In this document: in pieces, positions 5,292-31,724 of the stretch
Numbering within the stretch: the first letter of the stretch is position 1
Layout of the letters: every line of letters starts with the position of its first letter
NCBI GenBank assembly: GCA_002715485.1
Contig: PAZL01000029.1
Span: 1 to 34,401, forward strand
Source: Aequorivita sp.
GTDB taxonomy: Bacteria; Bacteroidota; Bacteroidia; Flavobacteriales; Flavobacteriaceae
Direction: 5' to 3'
DNA: 34,401 nt
Program-made: the position numbers and the translations under genes
Notes under the pieces: model-generated
Told to the model about the DNA's origin: nothing
Database searches by the model: none
Seen by the model: the letters and a program-made list of their open reading frames with translations, nothing else

Positions 5292-5299
5292 CAAATATA
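5292..5299 (-). promoter_or_regulatory. Candidate -7 box for pglF
   Basis: TATATTTG on the minus strand, just after the pglE stop codon and about 57 bases before the preferred pglF ATG. It matches TAnnTTTG exactly, but no clear -33 element is seen. Confidence 0.35.
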
Positions 5300-5301
5300 C
5301 C

Positions 5302-6441: not shown

Positions 6442-6461
6442 AACTGTCTACAATTTTTTTG

Positions 6462-6469
6462 CAAAAGTA
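6462..6469 (-). promoter_or_regulatory. Candidate -7 box for pglE
   Basis: TACTTTTG on the minus strand matches TAnnTTTG exactly. It lies 20 bases before the pglE ATG, inside a 177-base intergenic gap. No -33 box is obvious. Confidence 0.4.
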
Positions 6470-6618
6470 AGCAGTTTTAGAAGTATGCCCGCACTTTATC
6501 GCTATAAAGTTACCAACCAATTCCACAATAGTTTACGGTTACTGCTTACTATCAAAATATAAATAATTATTGCTTGTCTCAATTTCCACCATCTTGACTC
6601 GTAATTTGTATCCTTAAT

Positions 6619-14819: not shown

Positions 14820-14863
14820 TCCGGAACCCTTAAGCCGAAAAATCGGTCGTAAAATTAAGCCTG

Positions 14864-14871
14864 CAAAGATA
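14864..14871 (-). promoter_or_regulatory. Candidate -7 box of the polysaccharide cluster
   Basis: TATCTTTG on the minus strand matches TAnnTTTG exactly. It lies between the cysN terminator and the wzx TTG at 14819, giving a leader of about 38 bases. The nearest TTG upstream is 26 bases away, too far for a standard -33 box, so this is moderate evidence. Confidence 0.5.
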
Positions 14872-14907
14872 CCACGCTCGTTTTGGTATTCAGCTATCAA
14901 TTTGCAC

Positions 14908-14944
14908 AAAAATTCCCTCTAAATGTATTTTAAAGGGAATTTTT
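14908..14944 (-). terminator. Hairpin terminator after cysN
   Basis: An 11-bp perfect inverted repeat, AAAAATTCCCT and AGGGAATTTTT, with a 15-base loop, about 30 bases past the cysN stop codon. Both arms end in A/T tracts, so it can work in either direction. It divides the sulfate operon from the polysaccharide cluster. Confidence 0.7.
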
Positions 14945-14972
14945 GGTTGTTTATCGAGAATTTCATTAAATA

Positions 14973-16229: not shown

Positions 16230-16232
16230 TAT

Positions 16233-16270
16233 AATGCTTTAGGCCGTAAGCTATAGGCTTTAGGCTATTT
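16233..16270. repeat. Heptamer array R1
   Basis: Five consecutive degenerate 7-mers on the plus strand: GCTTTAG, GCCGTAA, GCTATAG, GCTTTAG, GCTATTT (16236-16270). They fill the gap between the cysN start and the four-helix-bundle stop. The 34 bases from 16233 match array R2 at 29 of 34 positions in the same orientation. Confidence 0.85.
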
Positions 16271-16623
16271 TACTCTTTTAACTTTTTACTTAAATTATAA
16301 AGTTTTCCCTTAATATCATTTATTGACTTTGAAAGTTTATCTTCAGATTCAGTAGAAATAATGGATAAGTCTTTTGCCAGAATGAAAAAATACTCCAGTT
16401 CATGGGCAGATCCTAATGATATCTGTACAAATCTATTAAAATCCTTGTCTGAATCCCTTCCGCAGCCTTCACAAAAATTAGAAGTAATAGAATATGCAGC
16501 CCTTCGCATTTGCGTGGTCAATTGAAACTTTTCCGAATCAGGAAACCCAGAAGTAATTTTATAAACTTCCAAAACAAGTTCGTGACTTAAAACCCAAACA
16601 TCATATTTCCTAAAATCCCTCAT
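16270..16623 (-). CDS. Four-helix-bundle protein (bS23/TIGR02436-like)
   Basis: 117 aa, the standard length of the four-helix-bundle family related to 23S rRNA intervening-sequence proteins and to Avd of diversity-generating retroelements. The usual N-terminal FRKYDVWVLSHELVLEVYK is present, followed by FPDSEKFQLTTQMRRAAYSI and SNFCEGCGRDSDKDF. It is predicted to form a small basic oligomer that may bind nucleic acid; its cellular role is unknown. It interrupts the cysD-cysN pair. Direct repeats R1 and R2 lie immediately outside its stop and start codons, suggesting acquisition as a repeat-borne cassette. No reverse transcriptase or rRNA is in the window. Confidence 0.9.
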   Translation of the reverse strand: MRDFRKYDVWVLSHELVLEVYKITSGFPDSEKFQLTTQMRRAAYSITSNFCEGCGRDSDKDFNRFVQISLGSAHELEYFFILAKDLSIISTESEDKLSKSINDIKGKLYNLSKKLKE

Positions 16624-16628
16624 AAATT

Positions 16629-16666
16629 AATGCTTTAGGCTGTATGTTTTAGGCTTTATGCTTTGT
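16629..16666. repeat. Heptamer array R2
   Basis: Plus-strand 7-mers GCTTTAG, GCTGTAT, GTTTTAG, GCTTTAT, GCTTTGT (16632-16666), just upstream of the four-helix-bundle start codon. It is a direct repeat of R1 and inverted relative to R3. The message can pair GGCTGTA of R3 with TACAGCC of R2. Confidence 0.85.
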
Positions 16667-16770
16667 GTCCTTTGCTTGTTATCTATTTTATTAAGTTTAC
16701 GTCTTTGCACCCTAACTTTATATTATTTACTTCTTTTAAACATTCTTAATTTTTCACTTTATAAATCGAA

Positions 16771-16804
16771 TATAGCTTATGGCTTACAGCCTACAGCCTA
16801 CAGC
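16771..16804. repeat. Heptamer array R3, overlapping the cysD stop
   Basis: Minus-strand 7-mers GCTGTAG, GCTGTAG, GCTGTAA, GCCATAA, then GCTATA. The last base of the cysD TAG stop codon is the first base of the array. Opposite orientation to R1 and R2. The 104 bases between R2 and R3 show nothing recognisable. Confidence 0.85.
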
Positions 16805-17709
16805 TAAAAGTACCCCTGCCGCTTCCTATCCTCCATAGCTGTTTCGCTGCGTTTATCATCGCTTCGGTTGCCGCGTTCAGTCTGTTTCATTGCTGCAACT
16901 TCAACTACAATTTTCTCCAAAGTGTCGGCATCGCTTTCTATGCCGCCAGTAATGGTGATGTCTCCCAAAGTCCTAAATCGGATTTTTTTGCTTTCAATTT
17001 TTTCGTTTTCATCCAACTTTAAAAACTCGGAAACGGGAATCCAAGAATCGTTTCTCCAAACCACTTCGCGTTGGTGTGCCAAATACAGGGAAGGAATCTT
17101 TATATCCTCACGCTTTATATAATTCCAAACGTCCATTTCGGTCCAATTGCTTATAGGGAAAGCACGAAAATGCTCGCCTTCAAAATGTTTCCCATTTAAT
17201 AAATTCCAAAGCTCCGGCCGTTGGTTCTTTGGGTCCCATTGCCCAAAATCGTCACGGTGTGAAAAAAAGCGTTCCTTGGCACGGGCCTTTTCCTCATCAC
17301 GCCTACCACCACCTATTGCACAATCTATTTTGTTGCTTTCAATAGCATCAAGTAATGTTGTTATTTGAAGTGCATTACGTGTTGCGTTTTTTCCTTTTTC
17401 TTCAGCAACTCTTCCCGTGTCAATAGATTCCTGAACGGAGCCGACAATCAATTGAACGCCTAACGCTTCAATCAATTCATCGCGAAACTGAATAGTCTCT
17501 GGAAAATTATGGCCTGTATCCACGTGAAGCAACGGAAATGGAATCTTGGATGGATAAAATGCTTTTCTTGCCAAATGTGTTACCAGAATAGAGTCTTTTC
17601 CGCCTGAAAATAATATAACCGGATTCTGGAACTGTGCCCAAACCTCCCGGAGAATGTATATAGCCTCAGATTCAAGTTCATCCAAATAATTTAAATAGTA
17701 CTTACTCAT
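16804..17709 (-). CDS. cysD: Sulfate adenylyltransferase catalytic subunit
   Basis: 301 aa, full length. PP-loop ATP pyrophosphatase fold with SGGKDS at 35-40, HVDTGHNFPETIQFRDE near 81-97 and the GGGRRDEEKARAKERFFS stretch near 158-175. It makes adenosine 5'-phosphosulfate from sulfate and ATP with the help of the CysN GTPase. The basic C-terminus ending DRKRQGYF is typical. It follows cysC after a 138-base gap that contains array R4, and its own stop codon lies in array R3. Confidence 0.97.
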   Translation of the reverse strand: MSKYYLNYLDELESEAIYILREVWAQFQNPVILFSGGKDSILVTHLARKAFYPSKIPFPLLHVDTGHNFPETIQFRDELIEALGVQLIVGSVQESIDTGRVAEEKGKNATRNALQITTLLDAIESNKIDCAIGGGRRDEEKARAKERFFSHRDDFGQWDPKNQRPELWNLLNGKHFEGEHFRAFPISNWTEMDVWNYIKREDIKIPSLYLAHQREVVWRNDSWIPVSEFLKLDENEKIESKKIRFRTLGDITITGGIESDADTLEKIVVEVAAMKQTERGNRSDDKRSETAMEDRKRQGYF

Positions 17710-17826
17710 TTGCTATGCGTTAATTATGTTTAATTCGGGTTTCGTTAGTTTGCGATTCGTTAATTGGATATATAATCTTAATCGTTTATGATAAATCGTT
17801 TTCATAATCATCTTCAAATATAAATC

Positions 17827-17854
17827 ATAAAGCTTACAGCATAAAGCCTAAAGC
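17827..17854. repeat. Heptamer array R4, overlapping the cysC stop
   Basis: Minus-strand 7-mers GCTTTAG, GCTTTAT, GCTGTAA, GCTTTAT. The cysC stop codon TAG (17850-17848) is part of the first unit. Same orientation as R3. The rest of the cysC-cysD gap has imperfect CGTTAATT/CGTTAGTT repeats at about 17719-17766. Confidence 0.8.
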
Positions 17855-18435
17855 TTTGAACCAATAAATCTCATAATCAACGTCACCGCTTCTTCCACAG
17901 AAATCACAGTTGTATTTATTTCCACATCGGGAGCCATGGGTGCTTCGTAAGGGGCATTTACACCCGTGAAATTTTGAATTTCACCGGCTCGAGCCTTTTC
18001 ATACAAACCTTTTACATCACGTCGTTCGCACTCTTCAATAGGTGTGTTTACAAAAACCTCAACAAAGTTTTCATAACCCACAATTCGTTTTGCGTTTTCG
18101 CGGTCTTCCCTATAGGGTGAAACGAACGATGCCAAAACTACCAAACCTGCATCAATCATCAAATTGGCTACTTCTGCAATTCTTCTAATATTTTCAGATC
18201 TGTCTTCTGGCGTAAAGGAAAGATTATTGTTTAAGCCCTTGCGCACATTATCTCCGTCCAATAGGTAGGTATGGATTCCTTTAACAAAGAGAGCCTTTTC
18301 CAACGCATTTGCAATGGTAGATTTCCCAGAGCCCGAAAGCCCCGTAAACCAAATTAACAACGGCTCGTGCTTTTTTAAATCACTCCTTTGCCGCTGTGTA
18401 ATACTGAAGTTATGTGGAATTACATTTTCTTCCAT
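17848..18435 (-). CDS. cysC: Adenylylsulfate kinase
   Basis: 195 aa APS kinase, making PAPS (3'-phosphoadenosine 5'-phosphosulfate) from APS and ATP. The P-loop GLSGSGKST is at 32-40. LLDGDNVRKGLNNNLSF (about 58-74), FVSPYREDRENAKRIV and the GLYEKARAGEIQNFTG lid region are all present. A C-terminal stretch with EAPMAPDVEINT is typical. It begins 11 bases after the DUF2061 gene in the operon. Its last codons and stop coincide with heptamer array R4. Confidence 0.97.
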   Translation of the reverse strand: MEENVIPHNFSITQRQRSDLKKHEPLLIWFTGLSGSGKSTIANALEKALFVKGIHTYLLDGDNVRKGLNNNLSFTPEDRSENIRRIAEVANLMIDAGLVVLASFVSPYREDRENAKRIVGYENFVEVFVNTPIEECERRDVKGLYEKARAGEIQNFTGVNAPYEAPMAPDVEINTTVISVEEAVTLIMRFIGSKL

Positions 18436-18446
18436 AAAATTGTAAA

Positions 18447-18869
18447 TTAATTTCTATTTGGCAGTCCGTAATTTGTGCGATACCAAACGCGTTCGTGAAG
18501 ATAGTATAAAATCATTTTTGTCAAAAGTTCCGAAAGGCCAATCTTTAATCCTGTTAAAGGGTTTCCGGTAATGAGCCAAGAAAGTAACATAGTATCTAGC
18601 GTTCCTACACCACGCCAGGTAAGGGTTTTAAATACATGCCGTTTTCGACTTTCACGAATAATGCCTTTTTCCGAAAGATTAATGTTAAACCAAACCCTTT
18701 CGTGAAGATAGTATAGTATCATTTTGGTTATTACCTCCGCAAATCCAATTTTAAGCCCAGTCAACGGATTTCCTGTAATGAGCCAAGACAACAATATGGT
18801 GTCTAGTGTACCAACAATCCGCCAAGTAATGGTTTTGGCTATATGTCTTTTTCGGGATTGGTCCTTCAT
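18447..18869 (-). CDS. Duplicated DUF2061 membrane protein
   Basis: 140 aa made of two nearly identical DUF2061 units, at about 5-65 and 74-134. Both carry SRKRH, the T-W-R motif, GTLDT, SWLITGNPLTGLKIG and TKMILYYLHERVW. Each unit has two short hydrophobic helices. Family members often sit in sulfate-assimilation operons but have no assigned reaction. A role in sulfate handling is inferred from the neighbours. It starts 1 base after cysQ ends and is 11 bases from cysC. Confidence 0.9.
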   Translation of the reverse strand: MKDQSRKRHIAKTITWRIVGTLDTILLSWLITGNPLTGLKIGFAEVITKMILYYLHERVWFNINLSEKGIIRESRKRHVFKTLTWRGVGTLDTMLLSWLITGNPLTGLKIGLSELLTKMILYYLHERVWYRTNYGLPNRN

Positions 18870-18870
18870 C

Positions 18871-19656
18871 TTACACTTTTACCAAGAAGTAATTGTTAAG
18901 TAAATTGGGCTTGTTGTATTGCATATTTTTTTCCGTGGTCTGATCAATTACCGAAACCCCTACAGCATTACAGATTGCGTGTCCTGCGGCCGTGTCCCAT
19001 TCCATGGTTGGGGCAAAACGCGGATACAGTTGTGCAAGTCCTTCGGCTACTAAACAGAATTTTAATGAACTCCCTTTTGAAACAATTTCTACTTCATTTT
19101 GTTTTGCTATTTCTGCAATAAAATTTTTGGTTTCTTCATTCAAATGCGAACGGCTGCCTACAATTTTTACTACAGAAGCCTTACTTGGCTTTATTTCTTT
19201 AGCATTTTTTAAAATTTCCTCAACCGGATCATTTTCCGAAGAAATAATTATTTTCTTTGAAGTCTTACCGTCTGCAGATGTAAAATACAATTCTTTTGAA
19301 ACAGGAACGTAAATTACCCCAAGTACGGGATTACCATTTTCAACCAAAGCAATGTTTACAGTAAATTCACCATTTCGTTTTATAAATTCTTTGGTGCCAT
19401 CCAACGGGTCAACAATCCAACACCGGCTCCAGTCTTTTCTCTCAGCATAATCCAATTGCCTGTTTTCTTCACTTATAATAGGGATTACAGTAGATTTTAA
19501 ATACTCATTTATTACCTCGTTGGCATTTTTATCGGCCTGTGTAAGGGGTGAATCATCCTTTTTTTGTTCCACATCAAAGTTTGTGTCATAAACCATTAGG
19601 ATTTCTGTTCCGGCGGCTAAAGCAGCTTTTATTGCTACACTTAAAAGAGTATTCAT
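18871..19656 (-). CDS. cysQ: 3'(2'),5'-bisphosphate nucleotidase
   Basis: 261 aa inositol-monophosphatase-family enzyme that hydrolyses PAP (3'-phosphoadenosine 5'-phosphate), the by-product of PAPS use, to AMP. Metal ligands are visible in ISEENR (Glu63-Glu64), DPLDGTKEFIKR (83-94) and the C-terminal EWDTAAGHAICNAVG motif. First gene of the sulfate-activation operon. The 126-base region upstream, shared with a divergent small ORF, should hold the operon promoter. I find only near-matches to the -7 consensus there. Confidence 0.95.
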   Translation of the reverse strand: MNTLLSVAIKAALAAGTEILMVYDTNFDVEQKKDDSPLTQADKNANEVINEYLKSTVIPIISEENRQLDYAERKDWSRCWIVDPLDGTKEFIKRNGEFTVNIALVENGNPVLGVIYVPVSKELYFTSADGKTSKKIIISSENDPVEEILKNAKEIKPSKASVVKIVGSRSHLNEETKNFIAEIAKQNEVEIVSKGSSLKFCLVAEGLAQLYPRFAPTMEWDTAAGHAICNAVGVSVIDQTTEKNMQYNKPNLLNNYFLVKV

Positions 19657-20113: not shown

Positions 20114-20144
20114 TTGATTGCTATTCTAAGGTTAATTATCTTTG
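20114..20144 (+). promoter_or_regulatory. dps promoter
   Basis: A TTG at 20114-20116 and a perfect -7 box TATCTTTG at 20137-20144 are 20 bases apart, fitting the Bacteroidota -33/-7 layout. Transcription should start near 20150. This places the upstream in-frame ATG at 20142 off the mRNA and selects the ATG at 20169 as the dps start. Confidence 0.65.
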
Positions 20145-20168
20145 ATTGAAACCTTAAAAAACTACATA

Positions 20169-20660
20169 ATGAGCTATTTAAACCTCGATAAAAAGAAAAC
20201 TTCTGCAACAGCAAAAGAACTAAATGTACTTCTAGCAGATTACCATTTGTACTATCAAAAATTAAGAAATTTTCACTGGAACGTAATTGGTCATAATTTC
20301 TTTGATCTTCACATCAAGTTTGAAGAAATGTACGACGACGCAAAATTGAAAATTGATGAAATTGCTGAACGTATTTTGACACTTCGTTTTCAACCTACCA
20401 GTAATTTTACCGATTATTTGAAGATGAGCAATATTAAGGAATCCCCATCTGAAACTAAAGATTTAAAGATGGTTGAAATTTTACTGGAAGATCACGGTAA
20501 ATTACTGAAGCAAATGCGTACCGTAGTTGAAAAAGCAGATGCTGCTGGCGATGAAGGTACTATAGATATGATTGGTGGCTTTATTGGACATATAGAAAAG
20601 GTGAGTTGGATGCTAGATGCTTGGACAATGAAAACTGGAGAGGGCCACCCAGAAGCTTAA
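20169..20660 (+). CDS. dps: Dps-family ferritin-like DNA protection protein
   Basis: 163 aa from the ATG at 20169, the usual Dps length. It forms a 12-mer shell that oxidises and stores iron, using hydrogen peroxide, and protects DNA under oxidative or starvation stress. The inter-subunit ferroxidase ligands are visible at the spacing of E. coli Dps: His36 (NFHWNV), His48 (FDLHIK), Asp63 and Glu67 (KIDEIAERI). The C-terminus is short and acidic, without a lysine-rich DNA-binding tail. Single-gene unit with its own promoter and a hairpin terminator. The longer frame starting at 20142 (MIETLKNYI) begins inside the promoter and is rejected. Confidence 0.95.
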   Translation: MSYLNLDKKKTSATAKELNVLLADYHLYYQKLRNFHWNVIGHNFFDLHIKFEEMYDDAKLKIDEIAERILTLRFQPTSNFTDYLKMSNIKESPSETKDLKMVEILLEDHGKLLKQMRTVVEKADAAGDEGTIDMIGGFIGHIEKVSWMLDAWTMKTGEGHPEA

Positions 20661-20722: not shown

Positions 20723-23700
20723 TTAAAAATCAAATCCCAATCCAAATGTAAGCCGTGTACCTTCGCTAGAATTAAATAGGCTGAGGTTAGCATTCACGCC
20801 CCCTGCCCCATTTATCCAAAAACCACCGCCACGGGAATTGTGCCATTTGTCTGAATTATCGTCACGCAACCAAACCCTTCCTAAGTCTCCCCCTCCGTAA
20901 ATCCCGATTTGGAATGGCAATAATCCTATCTTAAACTCTGGAAAACTATAGCGCAAATCTGCACTACCCACCAAAAATGACTTGCCCGTAAAACGTTGTT
21001 CTCTATAACCTCTTAAGCCATTGTCACCTCCCAGGTTTGCAGCTTGATAAAACTGGTATTTCTGACCTAAATTCAATTGGTAGTTAATATTGGTTTTTAG
21101 TACTAAGGTTCTGTTTTTAACTAAAGTATTATAAAACCCAAGTCGTGTTTTTAAAAAGCCAAATAAATCATCCATATCCTCCAGATTATCCGTGATCCCG
21201 GCGTTAAGATCAAACAACATTCCTATCGTCGGGTTTTGGGGATCATCAAAACTTCTGTAATTGTAAATTCCTTCCAAGGTTACGAAGGAGCTTGTTTCTC
21301 CTTTATTTTCAACATCTGCTTGAGAAATAAAATTGGTTGGTGAGTTCCCTACTTCATAAGCGTCAAAGGTAGTTTGCAACTTAAAAAAGCTACCAAAATT
21401 ACTATTGCGAAGCAATCCAATATTACCCGAAATATGCTGTACATCTACCCTATTATAATCATAACCATTTTCATCCTGCAGATTTTGGGTTTCATTTCCA
21501 AAACCAAAAAAATTAATCTTGTAATTTGGACTTGTAAGCCGCGCGCCAAAACTGAGGTTTAAATCGTCTTTTATATTTGCAAACTCGCCGGAATATGAAA
21601 GTTCAAAACTATTGATATCAGTGAAATAGGCTAAATTTACTATGTGTTTTTGGGAAAATGGATTTCGTTGAAAATTATCTACCCTATAGGCATATTGCAG
21701 TGCCGCACGAAAACCGTCATCGGGATTATACCCAATTGCCGAAACCAATCCTTGTGAACGGTCTATTTGCTTTCGATAATCATAGGTGTTTAAATTATAA
21801 ATATCCGTAAAACGTAAACTGCCCCCTTTTTTTTCTTCAATTACACTTGGCATACTTTCATAATCGTAAACCTTTAACCTTTTACCTTGCTTTAAACTAA
21901 AACTGTCTTCATCCCTTCCGCCAATTATTCTCAAGAAAATTAAATCATCCTCTTCTCCATTTACTATAAACTTATCATTACCACTAAGGCCGTATATCCA
22001 TATTTCCTTAGTATCGTTTTTAGAAAATGTTCTATTAATTAAAGTATCAGATTTTATACCATTAATAGTAGTATAACCTCTCACATTTGTTTTGCCGTCA
22101 GCAAGTCTTGTTATTTCAAATAAATCGTCATAATCGGTCCCAACGATCGTCTGTAATGTGGAAAGATAGGTGTAGTATTCATCGGCAATGGTAACTAGAT
22201 TTCTTTTTCGCTCCTTTAATTTTTGCTTTATATCTTCCAAGGATTCATCCCGCACCTCTGGTGGAATATTATTAAATGCTTTCTCTATAATAGCATCGGA
22301 AATACTATCTTGAATTGATTTTGCCAAATATTTCCATTGTTCGCGACCCGAGTTTTTTAATAATGCCCGGTCCAGAATTACTCCTTCTTTATTGAACCAT
22401 TCTAGATCGTTCAAGTTCTCTCCATACACGTGGGTTTGCAAAGAGCCACTAAAAACAGAGCGGGTATAATCAAAAATATTTCCTTCAAAACTGGAAAATG
22501 CGTTGTCGCGGTTGTTAGGTATGGGAACGTAAACATTTTTTTTATATCGGTTGTAGAATTCTGCCCATTGCCAATGGTTTGGCTCACGGTCCCAATCGCC
22601 AATTAGCATATCAAACAATCTGGATTTTATATAATTTTCCTCATCAACTTGAACATTCCCTGTCTTCCGAAGTTTGATTAAAATATCATCCGTTGTTTCT
22701 ACATCATCAGGGTATTTGAAAAGACCTTCCCCTTCGCTCTTCTCGGAGGGTTCTATAGAAATCAAATACAAATCATTTCCGAAGCTATCATTGTAGCCCT
22801 CCAAACTTTTCTGTTTGGGAACATAATATAATTGAGGCGTGGTATAAAAGATGTTTATTGCCTTGGCCATATCTGGAATCGCCAGGATTGCATAGGGATG
22901 TGAAGCGGTATAAAAATTCGTGTTTTGTCCTTTTACGGAAGGAACATCAGCCTTTTCGGTATCTGTAGGTTTGTCGTCGGTATCTTCAAAAATGAGCTTC
23001 CTTGAAATCTCCAAAGCGTTTTTACCCATTGCGCGCATACGATATTGGTTACCATTATTGTCTGCCAATAAAAGTGAATTGTAATCTAACCCCTTATTTT
23101 CCTGAATTACTTTTAAACCTCCATATAAAGTATCCAACGAAGCAACCTGTGCGGTAACTGGTGTAGAGTATGCTTCTTTGTATTTTGCACCCCATACTGT
23201 CTTAAAAAATAATGCCTCATTTATACTATCCTGTTTAAAGATGGGTACTGTATATTGCTGTGGAAAAATTTCAGGTAACTCAGATATATCTTTTTTTACC
23301 GGTGCGGGAACAACTTCTTTTTGAAAGAGCATTTTAGGTTGAAAATTTTCACCTTTCACGTAATAACGCACCCAAGAGGAACCATCTTCAAACACATCCA
23401 GCACCGCAAAACCCTGCATGCCAGTACTAAAAAAACCATCCTTTCCTAGTGCAGCATACGATTCTTTAGCGCCACCACCAGAAACTATTTGTTTTAGACC
23501 ATCTTTTTCTATATACTGTAAATTATGGTCATGGCCCGATACAAAAACCAATCGCTGATTATTTTTTACCAGCTCCTGTAGTCTGTTCATTAAATTATTA
23601 TATAGCTCATTATACCTATCCTGAACGGAAACCCCACCCTGAGAGCGTACCTGAACTACCAAGGAGGATAAAAGTGGCATAGGTATTTTTTTTTGAAAAG

Positions 23701-24436
23701 GATATAAATGCTTTTCGAGTGCAAAATAACCACCATGGTTTCCGTTGGTAAACATCGGGTGGTGCATAGCGAAGACGATGGTCTTATTTTGGTTTTTCTC
23801 CAATTCCAACGCGAGTTCAATAAAAAACTTTTCGCGGGTTTTTATATCGCAATTTTCATTAATTGTTGGGTTTGCGTTCCAATCTTCTAGATACCATTGC
23901 GTATCGATGATAATGAGCTGTATATTTTTAGATACCGCTACACTTTCCAGTGGACACCCATTGCTGGGTCTAAAGGCATCCTGTTCTGGGAATAGTGCTT
24001 CCACATAATTTTCTTCACGGGCAACGCCTATTACACCATTGTTATACCATTCGTGGTTACCGGGAATAAAGATTGTTTGGCCTTCATAATCCTTAACCGC
24101 CCTGTATTGGGCATCAATCATATTTTCAGACTCCTTTCTTCGCGGGTGACCCTCGGGGTCCAATCCGGATGGGTAGATATTATCACCCAGATAAATCGTA
24201 TAATTACCTTTTGTCTTTTCGTTTTTAAGATAATTATTGAAGGTCGCCAGCGCATCACTCATCCCGCCCATTGGTGAAAGTCCTGCATCGCCAACCAAGT
24301 AAAAAGTTTTTTCTATTTTTTTTTGCGACGGATACAATGGTGACGCATCCTTATCCTTAAACTGTGGCGCATAAGTAGCACAGGACGAAATAAAGAATGT
24401 TGCAAAAAATAAAAAATAAAACTTTTTAAAAATCAT
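20723..24436 (-). CDS. Lipoprotein metallophosphoesterase fused to an Omp85-type barrel (active-site intact)
   Basis: 1237 aa. The lipoprotein signal ends ISSC (Cys19). A tartrate-resistant-acid-phosphatase-like metallophosphoesterase follows with all motifs: GDAG (Asp50), LGDNIY (Asp85), GNHE (126-129), MHHP (His225-226) and GHDHN (301-305). A middle domain (about 400-850) has weak kinase-like motifs: GDWDREPNHW at 613-622 and IPNNRD at 639-644. The C-terminal 330 residues are a bacterial surface antigen beta-barrel with the Omp85 LRGYREQRF loop motif and a terminal LGFDF. It is predicted to be an outer-membrane phosphatase. Substrate and sidedness are unknown. It lies 6 bases after its paralogue and ends at the terminator shared with dps. 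Confidence 0.88.
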   Translation of the reverse strand: MIFKKFYFLFFATFFISSCATYAPQFKDKDASPLYPSQKKIEKTFYLVGDAGLSPMGGMSDALATFNNYLKNEKTKGNYTIYLGDNIYPSGLDPEGHPRRKESENMIDAQYRAVKDYEGQTIFIPGNHEWYNNGVIGVAREENYVEALFPEQDAFRPSNGCPLESVAVSKNIQLIIIDTQWYLEDWNANPTINENCDIKTREKFFIELALELEKNQNKTIVFAMHHPMFTNGNHGGYFALEKHLYPFQKKIPMPLLSSLVVQVRSQGGVSVQDRYNELYNNLMNRLQELVKNNQRLVFVSGHDHNLQYIEKDGLKQIVSGGGAKESYAALGKDGFFSTGMQGFAVLDVFEDGSSWVRYYVKGENFQPKMLFQKEVVPAPVKKDISELPEIFPQQYTVPIFKQDSINEALFFKTVWGAKYKEAYSTPVTAQVASLDTLYGGLKVIQENKGLDYNSLLLADNNGNQYRMRAMGKNALEISRKLIFEDTDDKPTDTEKADVPSVKGQNTNFYTASHPYAILAIPDMAKAINIFYTTPQLYYVPKQKSLEGYNDSFGNDLYLISIEPSEKSEGEGLFKYPDDVETTDDILIKLRKTGNVQVDEENYIKSRLFDMLIGDWDREPNHWQWAEFYNRYKKNVYVPIPNNRDNAFSSFEGNIFDYTRSVFSGSLQTHVYGENLNDLEWFNKEGVILDRALLKNSGREQWKYLAKSIQDSISDAIIEKAFNNIPPEVRDESLEDIKQKLKERKRNLVTIADEYYTYLSTLQTIVGTDYDDLFEITRLADGKTNVRGYTTINGIKSDTLINRTFSKNDTKEIWIYGLSGNDKFIVNGEEDDLIFLRIIGGRDEDSFSLKQGKRLKVYDYESMPSVIEEKKGGSLRFTDIYNLNTYDYRKQIDRSQGLVSAIGYNPDDGFRAALQYAYRVDNFQRNPFSQKHIVNLAYFTDINSFELSYSGEFANIKDDLNLSFGARLTSPNYKINFFGFGNETQNLQDENGYDYNRVDVQHISGNIGLLRNSNFGSFFKLQTTFDAYEVGNSPTNFISQADVENKGETSSFVTLEGIYNYRSFDDPQNPTIGMLFDLNAGITDNLEDMDDLFGFLKTRLGFYNTLVKNRTLVLKTNINYQLNLGQKYQFYQAANLGGDNGLRGYREQRFTGKSFLVGSADLRYSFPEFKIGLLPFQIGIYGGGDLGRVWLRDDNSDKWHNSRGGGFWINGAGGVNANLSLFNSSEGTRLTFGLGFDF

Positions 24437-24442
24437 AAATTC

Positions 24443-27400
24443 TTACATTGAAAAAGCAACGCCAAAGGTAAAGCGTACTCCTTCTTCCCCAGTAAAAACA
24501 TTAAACGTTCCGCTTAACAAATCTGCAGTATTTACCCAAAATCCGCCTCCATAAGAATTGTGAAACACATCGGAAGTATCATTTGGAACCCATACCCTTC
24601 CCACATCATAACCTCCAAAAATACCCAGCTGTATGGGTAAAAGCGCAGTCTTGAACTTATTGAAACTATAGCGCAGATCAGCACTCGCTACCGCAGCACT
24701 ACGCCCCGTAAAGCGTTCATCCCGATAGGCTCTAAGCCCCGTATCGCTTCCCAATTGGGCACCTTGGTAAAATTCAAAATTATTACCGATGTTGAATTGC
24801 CCGCGAACGTCAGTTTTTAAAACTAGTTTTCTGTTTTGGGTCAAAGCATTATAAAAAACTATTTGCGGCTTTATATAACCAAATATCCTTTCACTGTCAT
24901 CTACATTTTGGGTTCCCCCAGCCTTAAGGGAAAAATTCATGCCGCGTGTGGGGTTTACCCTGTTATCATAACTTTCGTATTGATACGTTCCTTCTGCGGA
25001 AACAAAATATTTTGTTTCGTCAAGCTCGGTGGGAGCGGGAACAACTTCGGTTATATACCTGTCATTTGTACCTTCCACTTCAATTCCTTCAAATATAGCC
25101 TTAAACTGAAATTTACTTCCATAAGGAGAGTCTTTTATCACTCCCACTGAGCCTCCATAACCGCCAATACGAACGCGATTGTAGTCCATATCAAAATCAA
25201 ATTCATATTGCGGGTTAAGGGTCTCATTCCCAAAACCGAAATAATTTTCAGAAAAATTAGGGTTCTTAAAATATCCTCCCAAAAGGAAATTCCAACTTCC
25301 GAATATATTTGCAAATTCGCCTTCATAATTGATGTCAAAACTATTGGTCGCAAAATAATAACCTGCACTTATCCTGTGCTGTTGCGAAAATGGATTTCTT
25401 TGAAAACCATTAAAGGTTAGCACATACGATGGCCCAATCTTAACACCATCATCAGGATTATAACCAATCGTTGGTAGAAAAAGGCTAATGCTTTGCTTTT
25501 GCTTTTTGTAGTCATAGGTATTATAATCATAATTATCCGTAAACTTAAAAGTTGCACCACCTTTTTCCTCTATAGTATTTTTCTTGCTTTTTTGGTCGTA
25601 AATTTTCACTTTTCGACCATTGGAAATTTTATAGGTGTCATTATTTTGCCCTCCAATAATTCTTAAAAATATAGGGTGATCACCTTTTCCTTTTACTTCA
25701 AAAACGTCATCATCATCCAAACCATATACCCAAATTGAATTAGTTTCATTTGCATCAAAAGTTCTATCAACCATTAAATCGCCCTTTTTTCCATCTTTGA
25801 TACGGTACGTTTTTATATTGGTTTTTCCTTCTGGCAAACGAGTTATTTCAAAGTAATCATCCTTATCGGTACCTGTAATGGTTTGAAGTTTTGCGAGATA
25901 TTCATAATAATCTTCCGCTATTTCAACAAGATTGTTACGTCTTCCCTTCAGTTTTTTTATTATTTCGGCAGCAGTTTCATCCTGCACTTCTGTGGGAAGG
26001 TCTTTAAATGCATCCTCAATTACCTCATCAGTAATACTTTGCTGTATAATTTCTGCTTCTTCCAGCCACGCTTGCCTTCCATTATTCTGAATTAAGGCGT
26101 GGTCCAGTTTTATTCCCGCAGCATTAAACCATTTGGTGTGTTTCAATTGCTCGTCGTAAACTTGAAATTGGCGGGAGGTATTAAAAACAGCCCGTGCCAA
26201 ATTAAATAGCCCACCGTCAAAATATGAATAAACCTGATCGCGATCGCGTGGAATGGGTTCAAAAGTTACCGTCCCGTCATCATTGTCGTGTTGGGTAAAC
26301 CGCCATTGATCATTGTGGCGATCCCAATCACCCACAAGCATGTCAAAAACCCGTGCACGTATGTAAGCCTTTTCGTTTAGCTTGTATTTTTCGTCCTCGC
26401 GTAGTTTTGCCAATAAATCGTCGGTACTTTCCATATCATCCGGATAATCAAAAATAGGCCCGGTAAAGGTTTCATCAGGTCTTTCTACTATCATATAGAG
26501 CGCATCACCGTAATCAGCATTGAAATTTCCCAAGGCTTTTTGTTTCGGAACATAATAGAGCTTTGGTTTGGTGTGCAATATATCTGCTGCTTCAGCCAAT
26601 TTAGGTATTGTAAAGGCTCCGTAAGGATGTGCAGCCGTATAGAAGTCGAGAATTAAGTCTTCGGGGATGGTATTCAGGAAATCATTTTCTATTTCCTTAT
26701 CTTTTATAATAACGGTTTGCAGAAATTGTACGGCACTCTTTTTCAAAGCCCTCATATTATAGGTTCTGCCATCTTTATCTTCCAACCGCAAAGAACGCGT
26801 CTGGTGCCCTCCACCAGCACGGATTACCTTCAATCCGCCGTAAAGGGTATCGAGCAATACTGTTTTTGCGGTAACTTCCGTTCCGTATAATTGACGGTAG
26901 TGGTCGCCCCATAAAAACTTATAAAAACCAGATTTATCAACCATTTCGTCTGTGTATACTTGCGATTTTACAGTTTCGGGAAATTTTTCATGTAGGGTTG
27001 AAAAATCGTAAGTTTCAATAGCAGGAAATATTTCCTTTTGAAAAATTAGTTGGTAATTCCCATCATTGCCAGATTTAAAGAACTCCACCTGCGAAGCACC
27101 ATTTTTACCTACATCAAGCTTTGCAAATCCTTCGTGGCCATATACAAATTGACCATATTGTCCAAGTGCGGCAGCAGTAGCGCCAGAGCCGGCACCAGAT
27201 ACAATTTGTTTTACCGTGCCGTCATCATTGTACTGTAGTGACTCATCATGACCAGAAACAAATACAAGGCGTTCCAAATCTTTGGTGAGCACTTTAAGAC
27301 GGCTCATTAAGGCATTATAACGTTCATTATAGCGGTCTTGTTTAGAGATTGCTCCCTGAATTTTTACCTGTTTGATAAGAGTGCTAAAAAAATCTTTGTG

Positions 27401-28120
27401 TATTGCTGGATATTTTCCACCGTGCTCACCATACGTAATCAAGGGGTGGTACATTGCGAAAACAATTGTTTTTGTAGCATTCTTCTTCAATTCTCCCTCT
27501 ATTTCTATAAACAATTTTTCACGTGTTTTTATATCGCACTTATCGTTCATTTTAGCGTTGCTGTCCCAGTCTTCCAAGAACCATTGGGTATCTAAGGCAA
27601 TCAGATGTACATTATCATTAATATCGATACTTTCAAGTGGGCAACCATTATTTGGCTGCAATACATCGGCATCGTTAAATCGTGCTTTAAGAAAATCCTC
27701 TTCAAGTTCTAAGCCGTCCACACCACCTATCCAGTCGCGGTTACCAGGCAATACCACTACCTTTCCCTTAAATCCTTTCAAGGCGTCTATTTGCATTTGC
27801 ATCCCCTTAGCAGCCTTTGCTTTTGCAACTTCATCCTTTGGTGGCATGCCCGAAGGATAAAAGCTATTTCCCAAAAACAACACATAGCTGTCTTCAGAAT
27901 TATTTTCTGCTATATATTTCTTTAAGGATTGAAGTGATTTTGAAGAATTTTCATCTGATTTTCCGACATTGCCAATAAGATAAAAAGTCTTATCAATAGT
28001 ATTCTTGGAAAGTGGTTGTGAAATTTCTGAATTGGGGTTTTTATATTGTGGATTGTAGGTTGCACAAGCTGATAAAAGCGCGGTGACAACAAAAGTTATA
28101 AAGATGTTAATTTTATTCAT
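24443..28120 (-). CDS. Paralogous barrel lipoprotein with degenerate phosphoesterase site
   Basis: 1225 aa, same architecture as the gene after it: lipobox LSAC (Cys19), phosphoesterase-like domain, middle domain, surface-antigen barrel. The phosphoesterase motifs have decayed: GNVG for GDAG (Asn51), LGNSFY for LGDNIY, GNRD for GNHE, MYHP for MHHP and GHDES for GHDHN. Most metal ligands are therefore lost. The middle domain is better kept: GGGHQTRSL at 436-444, RALKK at 457-461, GDWDRHNDQW at 597-606 and PRDRDQ at 624-629, resembling a kinase Gly-loop, lysine, DRHxxN/Q loop and metal-binding Asp. The Omp85 loop motif reads LRAYRDERF, with Ala for Gly. First gene of a two-gene operon, divergent from the HD-domain gene across 52 bases. 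Confidence 0.88.
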   Translation of the reverse strand: MNKINIFITFVVTALLSACATYNPQYKNPNSEISQPLSKNTIDKTFYLIGNVGKSDENSSKSLQSLKKYIAENNSEDSYVLFLGNSFYPSGMPPKDEVAKAKAAKGMQMQIDALKGFKGKVVVLPGNRDWIGGVDGLELEEDFLKARFNDADVLQPNNGCPLESIDINDNVHLIALDTQWFLEDWDSNAKMNDKCDIKTREKLFIEIEGELKKNATKTIVFAMYHPLITYGEHGGKYPAIHKDFFSTLIKQVKIQGAISKQDRYNERYNALMSRLKVLTKDLERLVFVSGHDESLQYNDDGTVKQIVSGAGSGATAAALGQYGQFVYGHEGFAKLDVGKNGASQVEFFKSGNDGNYQLIFQKEIFPAIETYDFSTLHEKFPETVKSQVYTDEMVDKSGFYKFLWGDHYRQLYGTEVTAKTVLLDTLYGGLKVIRAGGGHQTRSLRLEDKDGRTYNMRALKKSAVQFLQTVIIKDKEIENDFLNTIPEDLILDFYTAAHPYGAFTIPKLAEAADILHTKPKLYYVPKQKALGNFNADYGDALYMIVERPDETFTGPIFDYPDDMESTDDLLAKLREDEKYKLNEKAYIRARVFDMLVGDWDRHNDQWRFTQHDNDDGTVTFEPIPRDRDQVYSYFDGGLFNLARAVFNTSRQFQVYDEQLKHTKWFNAAGIKLDHALIQNNGRQAWLEEAEIIQQSITDEVIEDAFKDLPTEVQDETAAEIIKKLKGRRNNLVEIAEDYYEYLAKLQTITGTDKDDYFEITRLPEGKTNIKTYRIKDGKKGDLMVDRTFDANETNSIWVYGLDDDDVFEVKGKGDHPIFLRIIGGQNNDTYKISNGRKVKIYDQKSKKNTIEEKGGATFKFTDNYDYNTYDYKKQKQSISLFLPTIGYNPDDGVKIGPSYVLTFNGFQRNPFSQQHRISAGYYFATNSFDINYEGEFANIFGSWNFLLGGYFKNPNFSENYFGFGNETLNPQYEFDFDMDYNRVRIGGYGGSVGVIKDSPYGSKFQFKAIFEGIEVEGTNDRYITEVVPAPTELDETKYFVSAEGTYQYESYDNRVNPTRGMNFSLKAGGTQNVDDSERIFGYIKPQIVFYNALTQNRKLVLKTDVRGQFNIGNNFEFYQGAQLGSDTGLRAYRDERFTGRSAAVASADLRYSFNKFKTALLPIQLGIFGGYDVGRVWVPNDTSDVFHNSYGGGFWVNTADLLSGTFNVFTGEEGVRFTFGVAFSM

Positions 28121-28172: not shown

Positions 28173-29357
28173 ATGAGCAATATTGTTGAGGCTGCAGATA
28201 ATTTCATCTTTCAACTGTTTAAGGATAAACTTCCAAGCACTTTCGTATATCACAATTATACCCATTCAAAACGTGTTTATAAAAGTATAAATGAAATTAT
28301 TGAAAACTCCCAAATTGATGTTAAAGATGCTACAATACTGCGATTGGCGGCTCTGCTTCATGATACCGGATACATAATTGGACGGGAAAATCACGAGGAG
28401 GAAAGTGTAAAAATTGCCAATAAATTTTTAAAGGAACATAAGGTAGAAGATGATATTATAAAGGGTGTAGAAAAATGTATTCTTGCCACAAAATTTAAGG
28501 ATACCACTCCACAATCTGAACTTGAAAAGGCAATTCGTGATGCAGATTCATCTCACTTTGGTAAGGATTATTTTGAGGAAGCTAGTGAATTTTTAAGACA
28601 GGAGTATCTATTCCAAAATGTCCATAATTATACTTCCAGGGAATGGTTGGATGAGAATATAAAAGTATTGGTAGAAAACCATCAATTCTATACCGAATAC
28701 GCTTTAAAGGAATGGCAGCCCGTAAAAGAGGAAAATCTTGCTGATCTGTTGAGCAAACGAAAAAAAAGAAAGGAAAAAATCCAGAAAGAACGTGTAAAGG
28801 CAAAGCTAAAGGCACAATATAAAAATGACAGCCCCGAACGCGGCATACAAACCTTTTATAGAACGGCCTTAAGAAACCATATGAAGTTGAGCGATATTGC
28901 TGATACAAAAGCGAATATCATGCTTTCTGTAAATGCAATTATCATTTCGTTGGTGCTTTCCAATCTTATCTCAAAATTGGATAACAACAATTACTTGATA
29001 ATTCCTACTGCCATATTTGTAATATTTAGTGCCATAACAATGATACTGGCTGTAATCGCCACTCGTCCAAATGTTACACGTGGTGAGTTTACGAAGGAAG
29101 ATGTGGCCAATAGAACCGTAAACCTTACTTTCTTTGGAAACTTCCACAAAATGGAACTGGAGCAATACGAATGGGCCATCGAGGAACTTCTTAAGGATAG
29201 AAATTATGTATACAAATCCCTAACAAAGGATTTGTATTTCTTAGGAAAAGTGCTGGATAGAAAATATCGGATTTTAAGACTTACTTACACAATTTTTGTA
29301 GCCGGAACTATTATATCGTTGATATCCTTTGCAGTTTTCTTTTATTTGGAAGTATAA
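28173..29357 (+). CDS. HD phosphohydrolase fused to a Pycsar-effector-like membrane domain
   Basis: 394 aa. The N-terminal HD domain (about 1-180) keeps its metal ligands: HNYTHS (His27/His31), LLHDTGY (His63-Asp64), NHEEES (His74) and RDADSSHFG (Asp123/125). A lysine-rich coiled linker (about 190-215) leads to a membrane domain with helices at about 247-267, 275-297 and 374-392. That region matches my recollection of the PycTM/Pycsar effector family (LRNHMKLSDIADTKANIMLSVNAIIIS in two parts: LSDIADTKANIML, then helix 1). Such effectors are thought to disrupt membranes when a cyclic pyrimidine nucleotide binds. No cyclase is adjacent. The HD domain might cleave the nucleotide or sense it. This may equally be a housekeeping signalling protein, since the same fusion appears common in Flavobacteriia. 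Confidence 0.85.
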   Translation: MSNIVEAADNFIFQLFKDKLPSTFVYHNYTHSKRVYKSINEIIENSQIDVKDATILRLAALLHDTGYIIGRENHEEESVKIANKFLKEHKVEDDIIKGVEKCILATKFKDTTPQSELEKAIRDADSSHFGKDYFEEASEFLRQEYLFQNVHNYTSREWLDENIKVLVENHQFYTEYALKEWQPVKEENLADLLSKRKKRKEKIQKERVKAKLKAQYKNDSPERGIQTFYRTALRNHMKLSDIADTKANIMLSVNAIIISLVLSNLISKLDNNNYLIIPTAIFVIFSAITMILAVIATRPNVTRGEFTKEDVANRTVNLTFFGNFHKMELEQYEWAIEELLKDRNYVYKSLTKDLYFLGKVLDRKYRILRLTYTIFVAGTIISLISFAVFFYLEV

Positions 29358-31724
29358 TTAATGCTCGATTTGCGAGATTAGATCTTCGTAAGTGTAGTAT
29401 TCCTTAACCTTGTCGTTGCTTTTACTGTAAAGCACCTTCACACGTAAAGCTTTTAGGCCAGTAACCCCTTGCAGATCCTCAAGTTCGAGTATTTCGATTT
29501 CTGTATCTATCATTTTTTGATGTTGCAGAAAAGACAAATATTTTAAATATTCTTCCTCGTCTTCTTTTTGGGAATAGATAATGGCTATTTTTCCGGGCTC
29601 TGTAATACGTTGGTCTGTGCCCTTTATGTTCGCTTTGTCCACTCGTTTTTTCACAACCTCATAGCGTGCATTATATGTTCCGTCAACGTCAAAGCGTTTT
29701 TCATCCATTCTAAAACGAAGTGATAATGAGCCATTAAACACTAAAAGCATTGAAGCTACATTGAGCCCCATGGGAAGCGAATCTTTAAAACGGTAAAAAC
29801 TGTTTTCCATCTCGCACATTACCTGCAACTGCCATAAACGTAGGTTTTTTAAATATATCTTATTAAAGGAACGCTCTTTCGTTATAGCTTCACCAATATA
29901 AAGATTATGTTCTACCCCATCTGTTTTAAAGCGCTCATAGTAATGTGGGTACATCTTTTGTGCATCTTGCTGCTTTCGGTCTAAAATAGCTGCAAGTCTT
30001 TTGTTAATTTGCATAACTGTCTCGTCGTAATCCTTTCGGAATTTATAGACAAAACCAGTATTTATATCTATGAGTTTGTAATACTCATCCACCCACTCCC
30101 TGTAAGTATCGTTTTTCTGCCTTATATGTTTTAGCAATGGGATGATTTCGGAAGAGATGAAATTCATAATCTTCCGCTCGGTATCAACCTGCAGATTTTC
30201 CTGAATCTCTTTTGAAAAACTTGCTATGCTAAACTTCATCTGCTCAAATATGGGGAGCGATGTTTGGTTGGAAAGTTTATTTAAAAGACTATCAATGTAA
30301 TTTAGCTGAAGAATAAGGTCTTGCTTTGTGGCTTCATTCCTGGCCTCAGAAGAGCCCTTAATATCGGTTTGTCCATATAATGGATAAATATCCTCAAAAA
30401 CTATTTCCCTAAAAAATGTAGGATTCCCGTCGTTAATGGTGTTGAGATATCGTTTTGCCTCTTGGCGGAATTTCCAGTGTACGCTGCTGTGTATGGCAGT
30501 ACATTCCTCTTGGATTATAAGTTCAAGTTCATTTTCAAGGTTTTCTTTGGAGCGCACAACAGAGTCAACCAGAAAAGGCATAATATCGCGCAGCTTATTG
30601 GCATTAATTGTATTTAAGTCATTTGCATTGGCCGAAACCAGTTCCAAAACTCCTAAAATTTTATCATCGTGTACAATAGAAGCAAAAATGGCGCTCCTCA
30701 TTCCCTGATCCAGCATTTTTTTATAGAGCAGGTTTTCTGGGTACATTTCATGATACCGTCCGGCATCCGTTACGCAATAAAACTCCTTCTGCTTAAAAAG
30801 GGTATAATAGGAAGCACTGCAAAGCGCATCCTTACTTAATTGCGATTTTTTACTATTGAGAATAAAGCTTGGGATTTCCTTAAATAAGGTTCTTTCAAAA
30901 GATTCGGTTTCCTCATTGTAATCCGTAAAACCAATCATTAATTCCTTTAAATCGAATATGGAACGGAAAATGCGGCTAAACTCGGTATTCGCAAAGCCAC
31001 CATTTTTTTCCAAACGTAACAGATTCGATTTAAAATCTGAAATGGAAACATTTAGGGTAACATCTGTTAAAGAGGCAATTACAAAACCATTGAAAATCCA
31101 ACTTTCGGGCGGAAATTTTTCTTTCCAAACAGAAACATCTTCAAAACTTTCCAAGAGTTCATTAATATCTTCTTCAGATATATCTTTGGCCTTATCGGTT
31201 TTTTGAATTTCTACAAAGTCTGCATTATAAAGCAACCTATAGTTTTTAACCATTCCCCGCTCATCGGGAATATTGTAATAGTAGGAACGCCTAAAGTCAA
31301 CTTTCTTACCATAATAAGCCCCTAAAATAATACTGCAACCCATGATATAAAATTGATCTTCATCAAAATTTATGATATCCAATTTAAAATCGGATCCAGC
31401 TGCCGCAATTATATTTTTATAGCGTTGAGTACTTTTAAAAGCTACGTCTTGGAAAGGAATGGTTGCAAACTTGATTTCATTTTTACCCAATGCCGATGGA
31501 AACAAAGGGTTCATAATTGTATTTATCTGTTCCTTATATTCTGATAGCTTATTAAAATCACTAATTCCTTCAGATAACTGTGGAAATTTTTCTTCAACTG
31601 AAAGGATTTGGGCAGCAAGATTTCTCTCTGCTTCGGTTTCGGGCGTATTATCCTTATAGGCATCAAAGACTTTTTTGAAACCTATTTTTAATTTTAATGG
31701 AAAGTCCCTTTTCAATTTCTTCAT
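29358..31724 (-). CDS. GAF-domain protein of unknown function
   Basis: 788 aa, soluble, no signal peptide. Residues 1-240 form an uncharacterised region containing KFATIPFQDVAFKSTQRY and a tyrosine-rich FRRSYYYNIPDERGM. A GAF-like sensor domain spans about 245-395 (YYTLFKQKEFYCVTDAGRYH, then MRSAIFASIVHDDKILGVLEL). The remainder is mostly helical, with a small C-terminal alpha/beta part (KIAIIYSQKEDEEEYLKYLS). I see no histidine kinase, GGDEF, EAL or cyclase catalytic motifs. It is convergent with the HD-domain gene and the two stop codons abut exactly (29357/29358), with no terminator between. Function unknown; a nucleotide- or ligand-sensing role is only a guess. Confidence 0.8.
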   Translation of the reverse strand: MKKLKRDFPLKLKIGFKKVFDAYKDNTPETEAERNLAAQILSVEEKFPQLSEGISDFNKLSEYKEQINTIMNPLFPSALGKNEIKFATIPFQDVAFKSTQRYKNIIAAAGSDFKLDIINFDEDQFYIMGCSIILGAYYGKKVDFRRSYYYNIPDERGMVKNYRLLYNADFVEIQKTDKAKDISEEDINELLESFEDVSVWKEKFPPESWIFNGFVIASLTDVTLNVSISDFKSNLLRLEKNGGFANTEFSRIFRSIFDLKELMIGFTDYNEETESFERTLFKEIPSFILNSKKSQLSKDALCSASYYTLFKQKEFYCVTDAGRYHEMYPENLLYKKMLDQGMRSAIFASIVHDDKILGVLELVSANANDLNTINANKLRDIMPFLVDSVVRSKENLENELELIIQEECTAIHSSVHWKFRQEAKRYLNTINDGNPTFFREIVFEDIYPLYGQTDIKGSSEARNEATKQDLILQLNYIDSLLNKLSNQTSLPIFEQMKFSIASFSKEIQENLQVDTERKIMNFISSEIIPLLKHIRQKNDTYREWVDEYYKLIDINTGFVYKFRKDYDETVMQINKRLAAILDRKQQDAQKMYPHYYERFKTDGVEHNLYIGEAITKERSFNKIYLKNLRLWQLQVMCEMENSFYRFKDSLPMGLNVASMLLVFNGSLSLRFRMDEKRFDVDGTYNARYEVVKKRVDKANIKGTDQRITEPGKIAIIYSQKEDEEEYLKYLSFLQHQKMIDTEIEILELEDLQGVTGLKALRVKVLYSKSNDKVKEYYTYEDLISQIEH

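Follow-up and report, generated by a model that had tools for sequence, protein, structure and literature searches.

A pair of tandem genes was analyzed in contig PAZL01000029.1 of Aequorivita sp. (assembly GCA_002715485.1); the window, meaning the whole stretch of DNA analyzed, covers positions 1 to 34,401. Each gene combines a phosphatase-like metallophosphoesterase domain (MPE), an unnamed kinase-like middle domain of about 380 residues (KL), and an Omp85-type barrel. The gene transcribed first (UP) retains the KL motifs and has lost most of the MPE metal ligands, while the gene transcribed second (DN) retains the complete MPE and has an eroded KL. The two genes are probably tandem daughters of a bifunctional, outer-membrane-anchored extracytoplasmic enzyme whose activities were divided after duplication in place.

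Both open reading frames (ORFs) named in a previous interpretation of the DNA, made from its letters alone (the sequence-only reading), were found where it had placed them, as tandem paralogues 6 bp apart (Table 1) with 46% protein identity. They were the only matches in their own genome, whose assembly is about 90% complete. The nearest named relatives of the window are Aequorivita spp. (93–94% protein identity), and the genome is that of an Aequorivita-like member of the Flavobacteriaceae. Both proteins share the same domain order: a lipoprotein-type signal (LLSAC and FISSC at the two N-termini), MPE, KL, an Asp/Gly-rich linker, and the barrel. A loose lipobox pattern was present in 147 of the 231 full-length homologues described below, for which ORF starts were set mechanically. 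Scanning the window proteins against Pfam and NCBIfam revealed no POTRA domain, and MPE and KL sit where POTRA would be. The Pfam cut-off for PF01103 was passed by the barrels of two relatives, L141 and L157.

The MPE of DN carries GDAG (residue 49), GDNIY (84), GNHE (126), HHP (225), and GHDHN (301), a pattern which we take to be that of purple acid phosphatases. Its metal-ligand set is full at the seven scored positions, and Pfam family Metallophos (PF00149) matches it with E = 6.7e-8 (33.6 bits, cut-off 21.5); DN indeed keeps every phosphoesterase motif, as had been stated. This was the only domain of either window protein above a curated Pfam cut-off. UP instead carries GNVG (50), GNSF (84), GNRD (126), YHP (224), and GHDES (290), and the Pfam scan returned no match of any kind for UP, its MPE region included. 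The described loss of ligands in UP is real and the quoted motifs are present, but "nearly all" was slightly too strong, as 2/7 ligand positions are kept, or 3/7 when scoring uses the second rather than the first His of HHP. In KL the situation is reversed. UP has GGGHQ (436), MRALKK (456), GDWDRHNDQW (597), and PIPRDRDQ (622), whereas DN has lost the GGG of the glycine loop and reads GDWDREPNHW (613) and PIPNNRDN (638); both the retention in UP and the erosion in DN had been correctly recognized.

Motif retention was scored at seven MPE positions (D50, D85, N127, H128, H225, H302, and H304 in DN numbering) and ten KL positions (G71, G72, R92, K96, D127, D235, H237, Q/N240, D261, and D263 in domain numbering). 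The first His of HHP was used in the main scoring because in the HxP motif of purple acid phosphatases it is the first His that is used. Copies with MPE 7/7 and KL of at least 9/10 were classed as both-intact, those with MPE 7/7 and KL of at most 7/10 as MPE-only, and those keeping KL with MPE ligands lost as KL-only. Full-length copies were those of at least 1150 amino acids (aa); after shorter, stretch-end-cut, or repeated copies were dropped, 297 KL ORFs yielded 231 rows. The counts exclude the interrupted genes of L037 and L068, each a homologue broken into two ORFs (13679–17394 and 10001–13711, respectively), as well as the second gene of L044, which is truncated at a contig end.

The 231 full-length homologues comprised 124 both-intact, 77 KL-only, and 30 MPE-only copies, and none in neither class. 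Scoring of the second His of HHP gave 118 copies with MPE 7/7 and KL 10/10, five with MPE 7/7 and KL 9/10, 78 with degraded MPE, and 30 MPE-only, the neither class again being empty. Loss in orthologues is thus non-random, with a caveat for L164 and L166 given below. Among the 77 KL-only copies, H128 was kept in two (L214 and L216) and H304 in six, and both together in none. In the 131 full-length homologues tabulated first, the single copies of Leeuwenhoekiella, Gelidibacter, Flavobacterium, and Tenacibaculum keep the MPE motifs; nearly all of them keep the KL motifs as well, DRH being replaced by DRD in L052 and L079 and by DRN in L059. In intact KL domains, the R and K of the MRALKK region were present in 216/216 and the third G of the glycine loop in 211/216, the first two being part of the definition of intact. 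The position five residues after D235, itself part of that definition, was Q in 214/216 and N in 2/216. In 39 decayed KL domains, the commonest changes were D261N (28), H237E (27), and Q240H (26), with G436 and G437 (UP numbering) lost in 28 and 25, respectively.

The order of the copies was equally regular. Among 78 loci (77 relatives and the window), 24 contained at least two full-length copies. Of these, 23 were same-strand arrays, namely 15 with the order KL-only/MPE-only and eight with KL-only/MPE-only/KL-only, so that the order was fixed in 23/23; a peculiarity of the window was thereby ruled out. The remaining multi-copy locus, L091 (Ulvibacter), holds the lone convergent MPE-only/KL-only pair. 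The arrays most likely arose by duplication in place, since single-copy genes have the same divergent neighbour, a protein with an HD domain and PycTM, a Pycsar-effector-type membrane domain. This gene lies 52 bp from UP in the window; it adjoins the KL gene divergently in 63/78 loci, with a median gap of 52 bp, and is present somewhere in 74/78.

A FastTree phylogeny of the linker and barrel half was built from 147 of 207 rows after redundancy filtering, and then from 158 rows. Of the 11 rows added, three or more duplicate genes that the tree already contained (L309 = L081, L313 = L089, L305 = L095), which changes clade sizes and leaves the number of clades as it was. MPE-only copies had at least three origins: a clade of 18 rows, L304 (Aquimarina brevivitae), and L197. 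KL-only copies formed ten clades, some inner branches being open; nine is the safer count, because the tenth consists of L095 alone, which is both-intact under first-His scoring. As most MPE-only rows fall into one clade, most of the 23 arrays share one event. The family-wide alignment thus bore out the proposed division, largely through a single ancestral event, and the recurrent evidence consists of KL loss beside an intact MPE, three times, and MPE loss beside an intact KL, about nine times. Random decay was rejected on the strength of these repeated independent origins together with the empty neither class.

The same pattern was observed per genome. A match was found in 109 of 149 genomes of the family, and copies from 107 of these were read. 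Both sites are kept wherever a genome has a single full-length copy (73/73). In each of the 30 genomes with several full-length copies, exactly one is MPE-intact and between one and three are KL-intact. As regards the other four, the gene of G059 is broken in two, yet both sites are present, and the remaining three do not show both sites: G106 and G079 are cut by contig ends, and G060 has a divergent homologue with neither. With second-His scoring, the genomes not showing both sites numbered 5/107 instead of 3/107. When 20 genomes were rechecked for further matches, no further full-length copies were found, only KL-alone genes of about 416–450 aa in 16 of them and otherwise fragments; in the remaining genomes at most four candidates each were scored, so that distant copies could have been overlooked. 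The split also occurs outside tandem pairs. As predicted, the genomes of the KL-only loci L081, L086, and L089 each hold an MPE-intact copy elsewhere (3/3), and that of the L081 genome (Aquimarina brevivitae) is L304, in which KL was eroded independently.

Divergence of the two domains followed the motifs. Compared with Leeuwenhoekiella single copies, UP-type genes (20) showed 44.7% identity in MPE and 60.8% in KL, and third copies (8) showed 39.7% and 56.8%, respectively. For DN-type genes (23) the corresponding values were 55.2% and 44.5%, and for other single copies (10) they were 54.4% and 52.2%. In close Aequorivita pairs, the median ratio of nonsynonymous to synonymous substitution rates (dN/dS) was 0.048 for UP MPE, 0.032 for UP KL, 0.024 for DN MPE, and 0.042 for DN KL, and ranged from 0.024 to 0.082 over four parts of both genes, based on 3–6 usable pairs per domain. 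In a wider Aequorivita set, where saturation of dS left 1–7 usable pairs per domain, the DN linker reached 0.148. The eroded domains are under purifying selection in close relatives, which implies that they retain some role, the simplest being that of pseudoenzyme or docking domains. Pseudogene rot of these domains was rejected on the same median ratios, although from few pairs.

Whether KL is a kinase was approached by profile comparison. The KL profile contained 154 rows out of 235 motif-intact domains and is consequently selected for intact motifs. It was compared by hhalign with 95 profiles, comprising 45 neighbouring gene families, their reversals, CotH, HipA, and reversed controls. With KL as the query, CotH ranked first of 95 (P = 0.0027), reversed KL second, and HipA third; when CotH was the query, KL headed the list (P = 1.4e-4, probability 53), ahead of reversed CotH, and HipA came third (P = 1.4e-3). 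The KL–CotH score was 33.4 against a null maximum of 26.2, and the KL–HipA score 24.1 against 23.1, neither being reached in 150 column shuffles; the positive control CotH–HipA scored 28.3 against 22.7. Judged by these profiles, KL would be about as distant from CotH as CotH is from HipA.

The alignment register agreed with this placement. KL D235 falls on CotH D228 and D261 on CotH D251, the aligned aspartates in CotH being 23 residues apart, as D228 and D251 are. The CotH variants D228Q and D251A are reported to be inactive (PMC7821199). When the diverse KL profile A3 was searched against all PDB sequences, the top match was CtkA (PDB 3akj), which we take to be a HipA-like Ser/Thr kinase in both fold and activity; the value of E = 0.15 is not significant alone, and CtkA GNFDRHNGNW lies under KL GDWDRHxDQW without gaps. 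With disjoint KL subsets, CtkA ranked first of two matches for A5 (E = 0.38) and second of ten for A4 (E = 0.33). D261, which is N in DN, falls near FDCG of CtkA, the position of the DFG-type metal aspartate. As expected, the eroded-KL profile A6 gave no kinase match against PDB. KL probably adopts a protein kinase-like fold of the CotH/HipA type, the best reading because matches that are individually weak are consistent when combined, and KL presumably acts in phosphotransfer. The suggested kinase similarity of the middle domain is therefore supported. Of the families named for comparison, CotH ranked first and HipA third. Searches for Fam20C and for PI3/PI4-kinases, each made in 118 Bacteroidota genomes, found nothing; in 14 control genomes, Fam20C matched none and PI3/PI4-kinase matched one, below the cut-off, and for that reason both are absent from the local profile set.

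When the opposite side is considered, several observations weigh against a kinase and a division into two activities. With HipA as the query, CotH came first (P = 0.0021) and KL only seventh of 95 (P = 0.13); the match to CotH was slightly stronger with HipA as the query (P = 0.0021) than with KL (P = 0.0027); and the query's own reversal was second in two of the three hhalign searches. Taken singly, none of the kinase matches reaches conventional significance (PDB E = 0.15, 0.33, and 0.38), and a non-kinase chain outranks CtkA for A4. Pfam scans of the window proteins and of 48 diverse members gave no match to KL, and no kinase family was among the matches of those 48 members (best 25 of 27 Pfam families, 16/16 NCBIfam). 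Searches of Pfam, NCBIfam, and PDB with single sequences or the earlier profile A2 gave no credible kinase match, CtkA not being found in PDB with A2, and Fam20C matched just 1 of 22 members (E = 0.16). Eroded KL domains keep R92 in 39/39, K96 in 37/39, and D235 in 31/39, so some activity may remain in them. L164 and L166, outside the family, are MPE-eroded and score KL 9/10 without D235, the proposed catalytic aspartate; they may be real double losses. Short relatives (below 1150 aa, outside the 231) lacking MPE and with a degenerate KL (L154, L169, L194, L196, and L319) are probably non-catalytic and may be scaffolds. The main biochemical objection is that the periplasm is not known to hold ATP; CotH and Fam20C, however, also act outside the cytosol.

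This last objection also counts in favour of the strongest alternative, in which KL has a kinase fold with other chemistry, such as AMP or glutamate transfer or the phosphorylation of lipids or sugars, and MPE removes or recycles the group; the split would then be real and the kinase/phosphatase label wrong or too narrow. Some kinase-fold proteins transfer AMP, SidJ is described as a kinase-fold protein performing polyglutamylation, and at +5 a nearly invariant Q stands where Asn is usual. The register of the catalytic loop and of the DFG-like motif nevertheless fits the protein kinases CotH and CtkA, and this alternative is considered unlikely. Even less likely is a conserved non-kinase domain, binding or structural, that carries kinase-like short motifs, its decay amounting to the loss of a binding site as opposed to the loss of the phosphatase. 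The weakness of every individual kinase match speaks for it, but reciprocal best matches between KL and CotH, shuffles that stay below the observed score, and invariant residues on catalytic positions do not fit it. Ordinary relaxed decay after duplication, with complementarity a coincidence inherited from the one event behind the 18-row MPE-only clade, is very improbable: MPE-only copies had three separate origins and KL-only copies make up nine or ten clades, the neither class contains no full-length copy, the eroded domains evolve under purifying selection, and exactly one intact MPE is kept in 30/30 multi-copy genomes.

Division of a bifunctional ancestor is thus the preferred explanation. 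In that ancestor, an N-terminal purple-acid-phosphatase-like domain would have removed phosphate and the middle CotH/HipA-type domain would have added it, both being held at the outer membrane by the Omp85-type barrel and the lipoprotein signal, presumably on the periplasmic side. After duplication in place, the kinase-like site would have survived in UP, and in the third copy where present, with loss of the phosphatase metal site; in DN the phosphatase site would have survived, with loss from KL of the glycine loop and of the two proposed metal positions (Q240H and D261N). The two daughters may share a substrate and co-assemble, each eroded domain serving as a pseudoenzyme partner, by analogy with Fam20A/Fam20C. 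The suggested split of phosphorylating and dephosphorylating activities between two barrel proteins is supported to this extent, the kinase half by sequence evidence that is weak piece by piece and consistent overall.

KL profile A2 matched 141 of 395 sampled Bacteroidota genomes, although the domain matches no Pfam model. Tentatively, and with somewhat less than even confidence, the Bacteroidota may possess a widespread, undescribed extracytoplasmic system in which kinase and phosphatase on one barrel protein act as writer and eraser of the same mark; one intact phosphatase copy would be kept per genome while kinase copies multiply, and Aequorivita and its relatives would hold natural separation-of-function pairs. 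If KL is a kinase, opposing activities reside on one outer-membrane protein, and clean single-activity versions evolved several times. Such versions could serve directly as tools to find out whether phosphorylation of proteins, lipids, or sugars takes place beyond the inner membrane of Gram-negative bacteria.

Several known systems resemble parts of this arrangement. The Omp85 "Metallo" subfamily, as described by Heinz and Lithgow (2014, PMC4104836), joins PF00149, read there as a metalloprotease, to the barrel; on architecture, the window genes probably belong to it. PF00149 is a calcineurin-like phosphoesterase family, so the present data offer a different reading of that subfamily. The word "kinase" is absent from the main text of that paper, and the passages seen mention no middle domain, paralogues, or motif division (PMC4104836). 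The spore-coat kinase CotH of B. subtilis (PF08757, PDB 5jd9) is similar in the D228/D251 register, the reciprocal best profile match, and action outside the cytosol. KL differs in that it lies below every Pfam threshold, carries Q where Asn is usual at +5, and forms part of a protein that also has a phosphatase and a barrel; its profile match to CotH contains no N-lobe that can be aligned. CtkA, the top PDB match for two of three intact-KL profiles, shares the gap-free catalytic-loop motif and has neither barrel nor phosphatase. The pseudokinase Fam20A is reported to activate the kinase Fam20C (PMC5413348), an analogous pairing of an extracytosolic kinase with a catalytically dead paralogue; there is no significant sequence match to it, and in the window the dead-kinase copy carries an intact phosphatase. 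PlpD-type Omp85 proteins likewise tether an enzymatic domain to the barrel, PlpD being reported as a homodimer (PMC11116518). The PlpD enzyme is of the patatin type, in contrast to the two phospho-enzyme domains of the window proteins. Open-licence literature was searched for the domain, the architecture, and the split; among the titles listed, none described the middle domain or the split, which is not proof of absence from print.

Table 1. Features of the UP/DN gene pair and its divergent neighbour in the window.
Feature	Position	Strand	Details and basis
UP gene (first transcribed)	24443..28120	-	1225 aa; MPE 2/7, KL 10/10
UP metallophosphoesterase-like domain	27086..28003	-	D50N, D85N, H128R, H225Y, H304E (DN numbering)
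UP KL domain, residues ~366-745	25886..27025	-	Alignments A1-A3, hhalign, PDB profile search
UP glycine loop GGGHQTRSL, residues 436-444	26789..26815	-	Motif check
UP MRALKK (R457, K461), proposed nucleotide-binding Lys region	26738..26755	-	Conservation
UP catalytic-loop motif GDWDRHNDQW (D600; Q605 at +5)	26303..26332	-	Aligned to CotH QNFD (D228) and CtkA GNFDRHNGNW
UP PIPRDRDQ (D626, CotH D251 equivalent)	26234..26257	-	Alignment
UP Asp/Gly-rich linker, KL to barrel	25541..25885	-	Conserved columns in A1/A2, pattern check
UP Omp85-type barrel, loop-6 LRAYR	24446..25540	-	NF047779, 57.9 bits, below cut-off 200
DN gene (second transcribed)	20723..24436	-	1237 aa; MPE 7/7, KL 4/10
DN intact MPE domain (GDAG/GDNIY/GNHE/HHP/GHDH)	23402..24319	-	PF00149
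DN eroded KL domain	22154..23308	-	End point estimated from alignment with UP
DN GDWDREPNHW	22571..22600	-	H237E, Q240H, D235 kept; motif scoring
DN PIPNNRDN	22502..22525	-	D261N, position of CotH D251; motif scoring
DN Omp85-type barrel, loop-6 LRGYR	20726..21808	-	NF047779, 54.7 bits, below cut-off 200
HD domain plus PycTM protein, divergent conserved neighbour	28173..29357	+	Pfam

The loop-6 motif of Omp85 proteins is (V/I)RG(F/Y). In the window, LRAYR lies near residue 1129 of UP and LRGYR near residue 1141 of DN. In both-intact copies the central residue was G in 103/123 and A in three, the pattern not being found in 17. Replacement of this G by A or S was observed in 21/78 KL-only, 5/30 MPE-only, and 3/123 both-intact copies, which may mean that the barrels have diverged as well.

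After the HD plus PycTM gene comes a gene (29358–31724) for a 788-aa protein whose family is conserved and has no Pfam match. A ferritin-like gene is located at 20142–20660, and a sulfate-assimilation-type cluster lies downstream of the pair at 14973–19656, with genes for a CysN-type elongation-factor-like GTPase, PAPS reductase, APS kinase, a DUF2061 protein, and a member of the inositol-monophosphatase family.

Three architectures containing KL were present in the loci read: MPE–KL–barrel proteins of about 1200–1350 aa, proteins of about 820–910 aa without MPE, in two of which (L146 and L157) the barrel was checked, and KL alone, of about 420–570 aa, with a lipobox seen by eye in 8/11. KL-alone genes of about 416–450 aa occurred in 16/20 flavobacterial genomes examined (e.g., G027:C1:451640-452662), and none was found in the window's own assembly, which is about 90% complete. 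The KL-alone proteins of L183, L320, and L322 keep the main KL motifs. In L161, L163, and L173, two KL-alone genes are divergent neighbours, one with DWDRH and the other with DWSRR, in which the proposed catalytic aspartate is lost (1498–3108 on the minus and 3226–4854 on the plus strand in L161; 3433–5055 on the minus and 5192–6778 on the plus strand in L163). Such pairs could possibly represent a kinase and a pseudokinase independent of the phosphatase. In two genomes, a CotH-family gene was located less than about 3 kb from a KL gene of 855–908 aa (G216:C10:20223-24674 and G167:C15:16534-20161).

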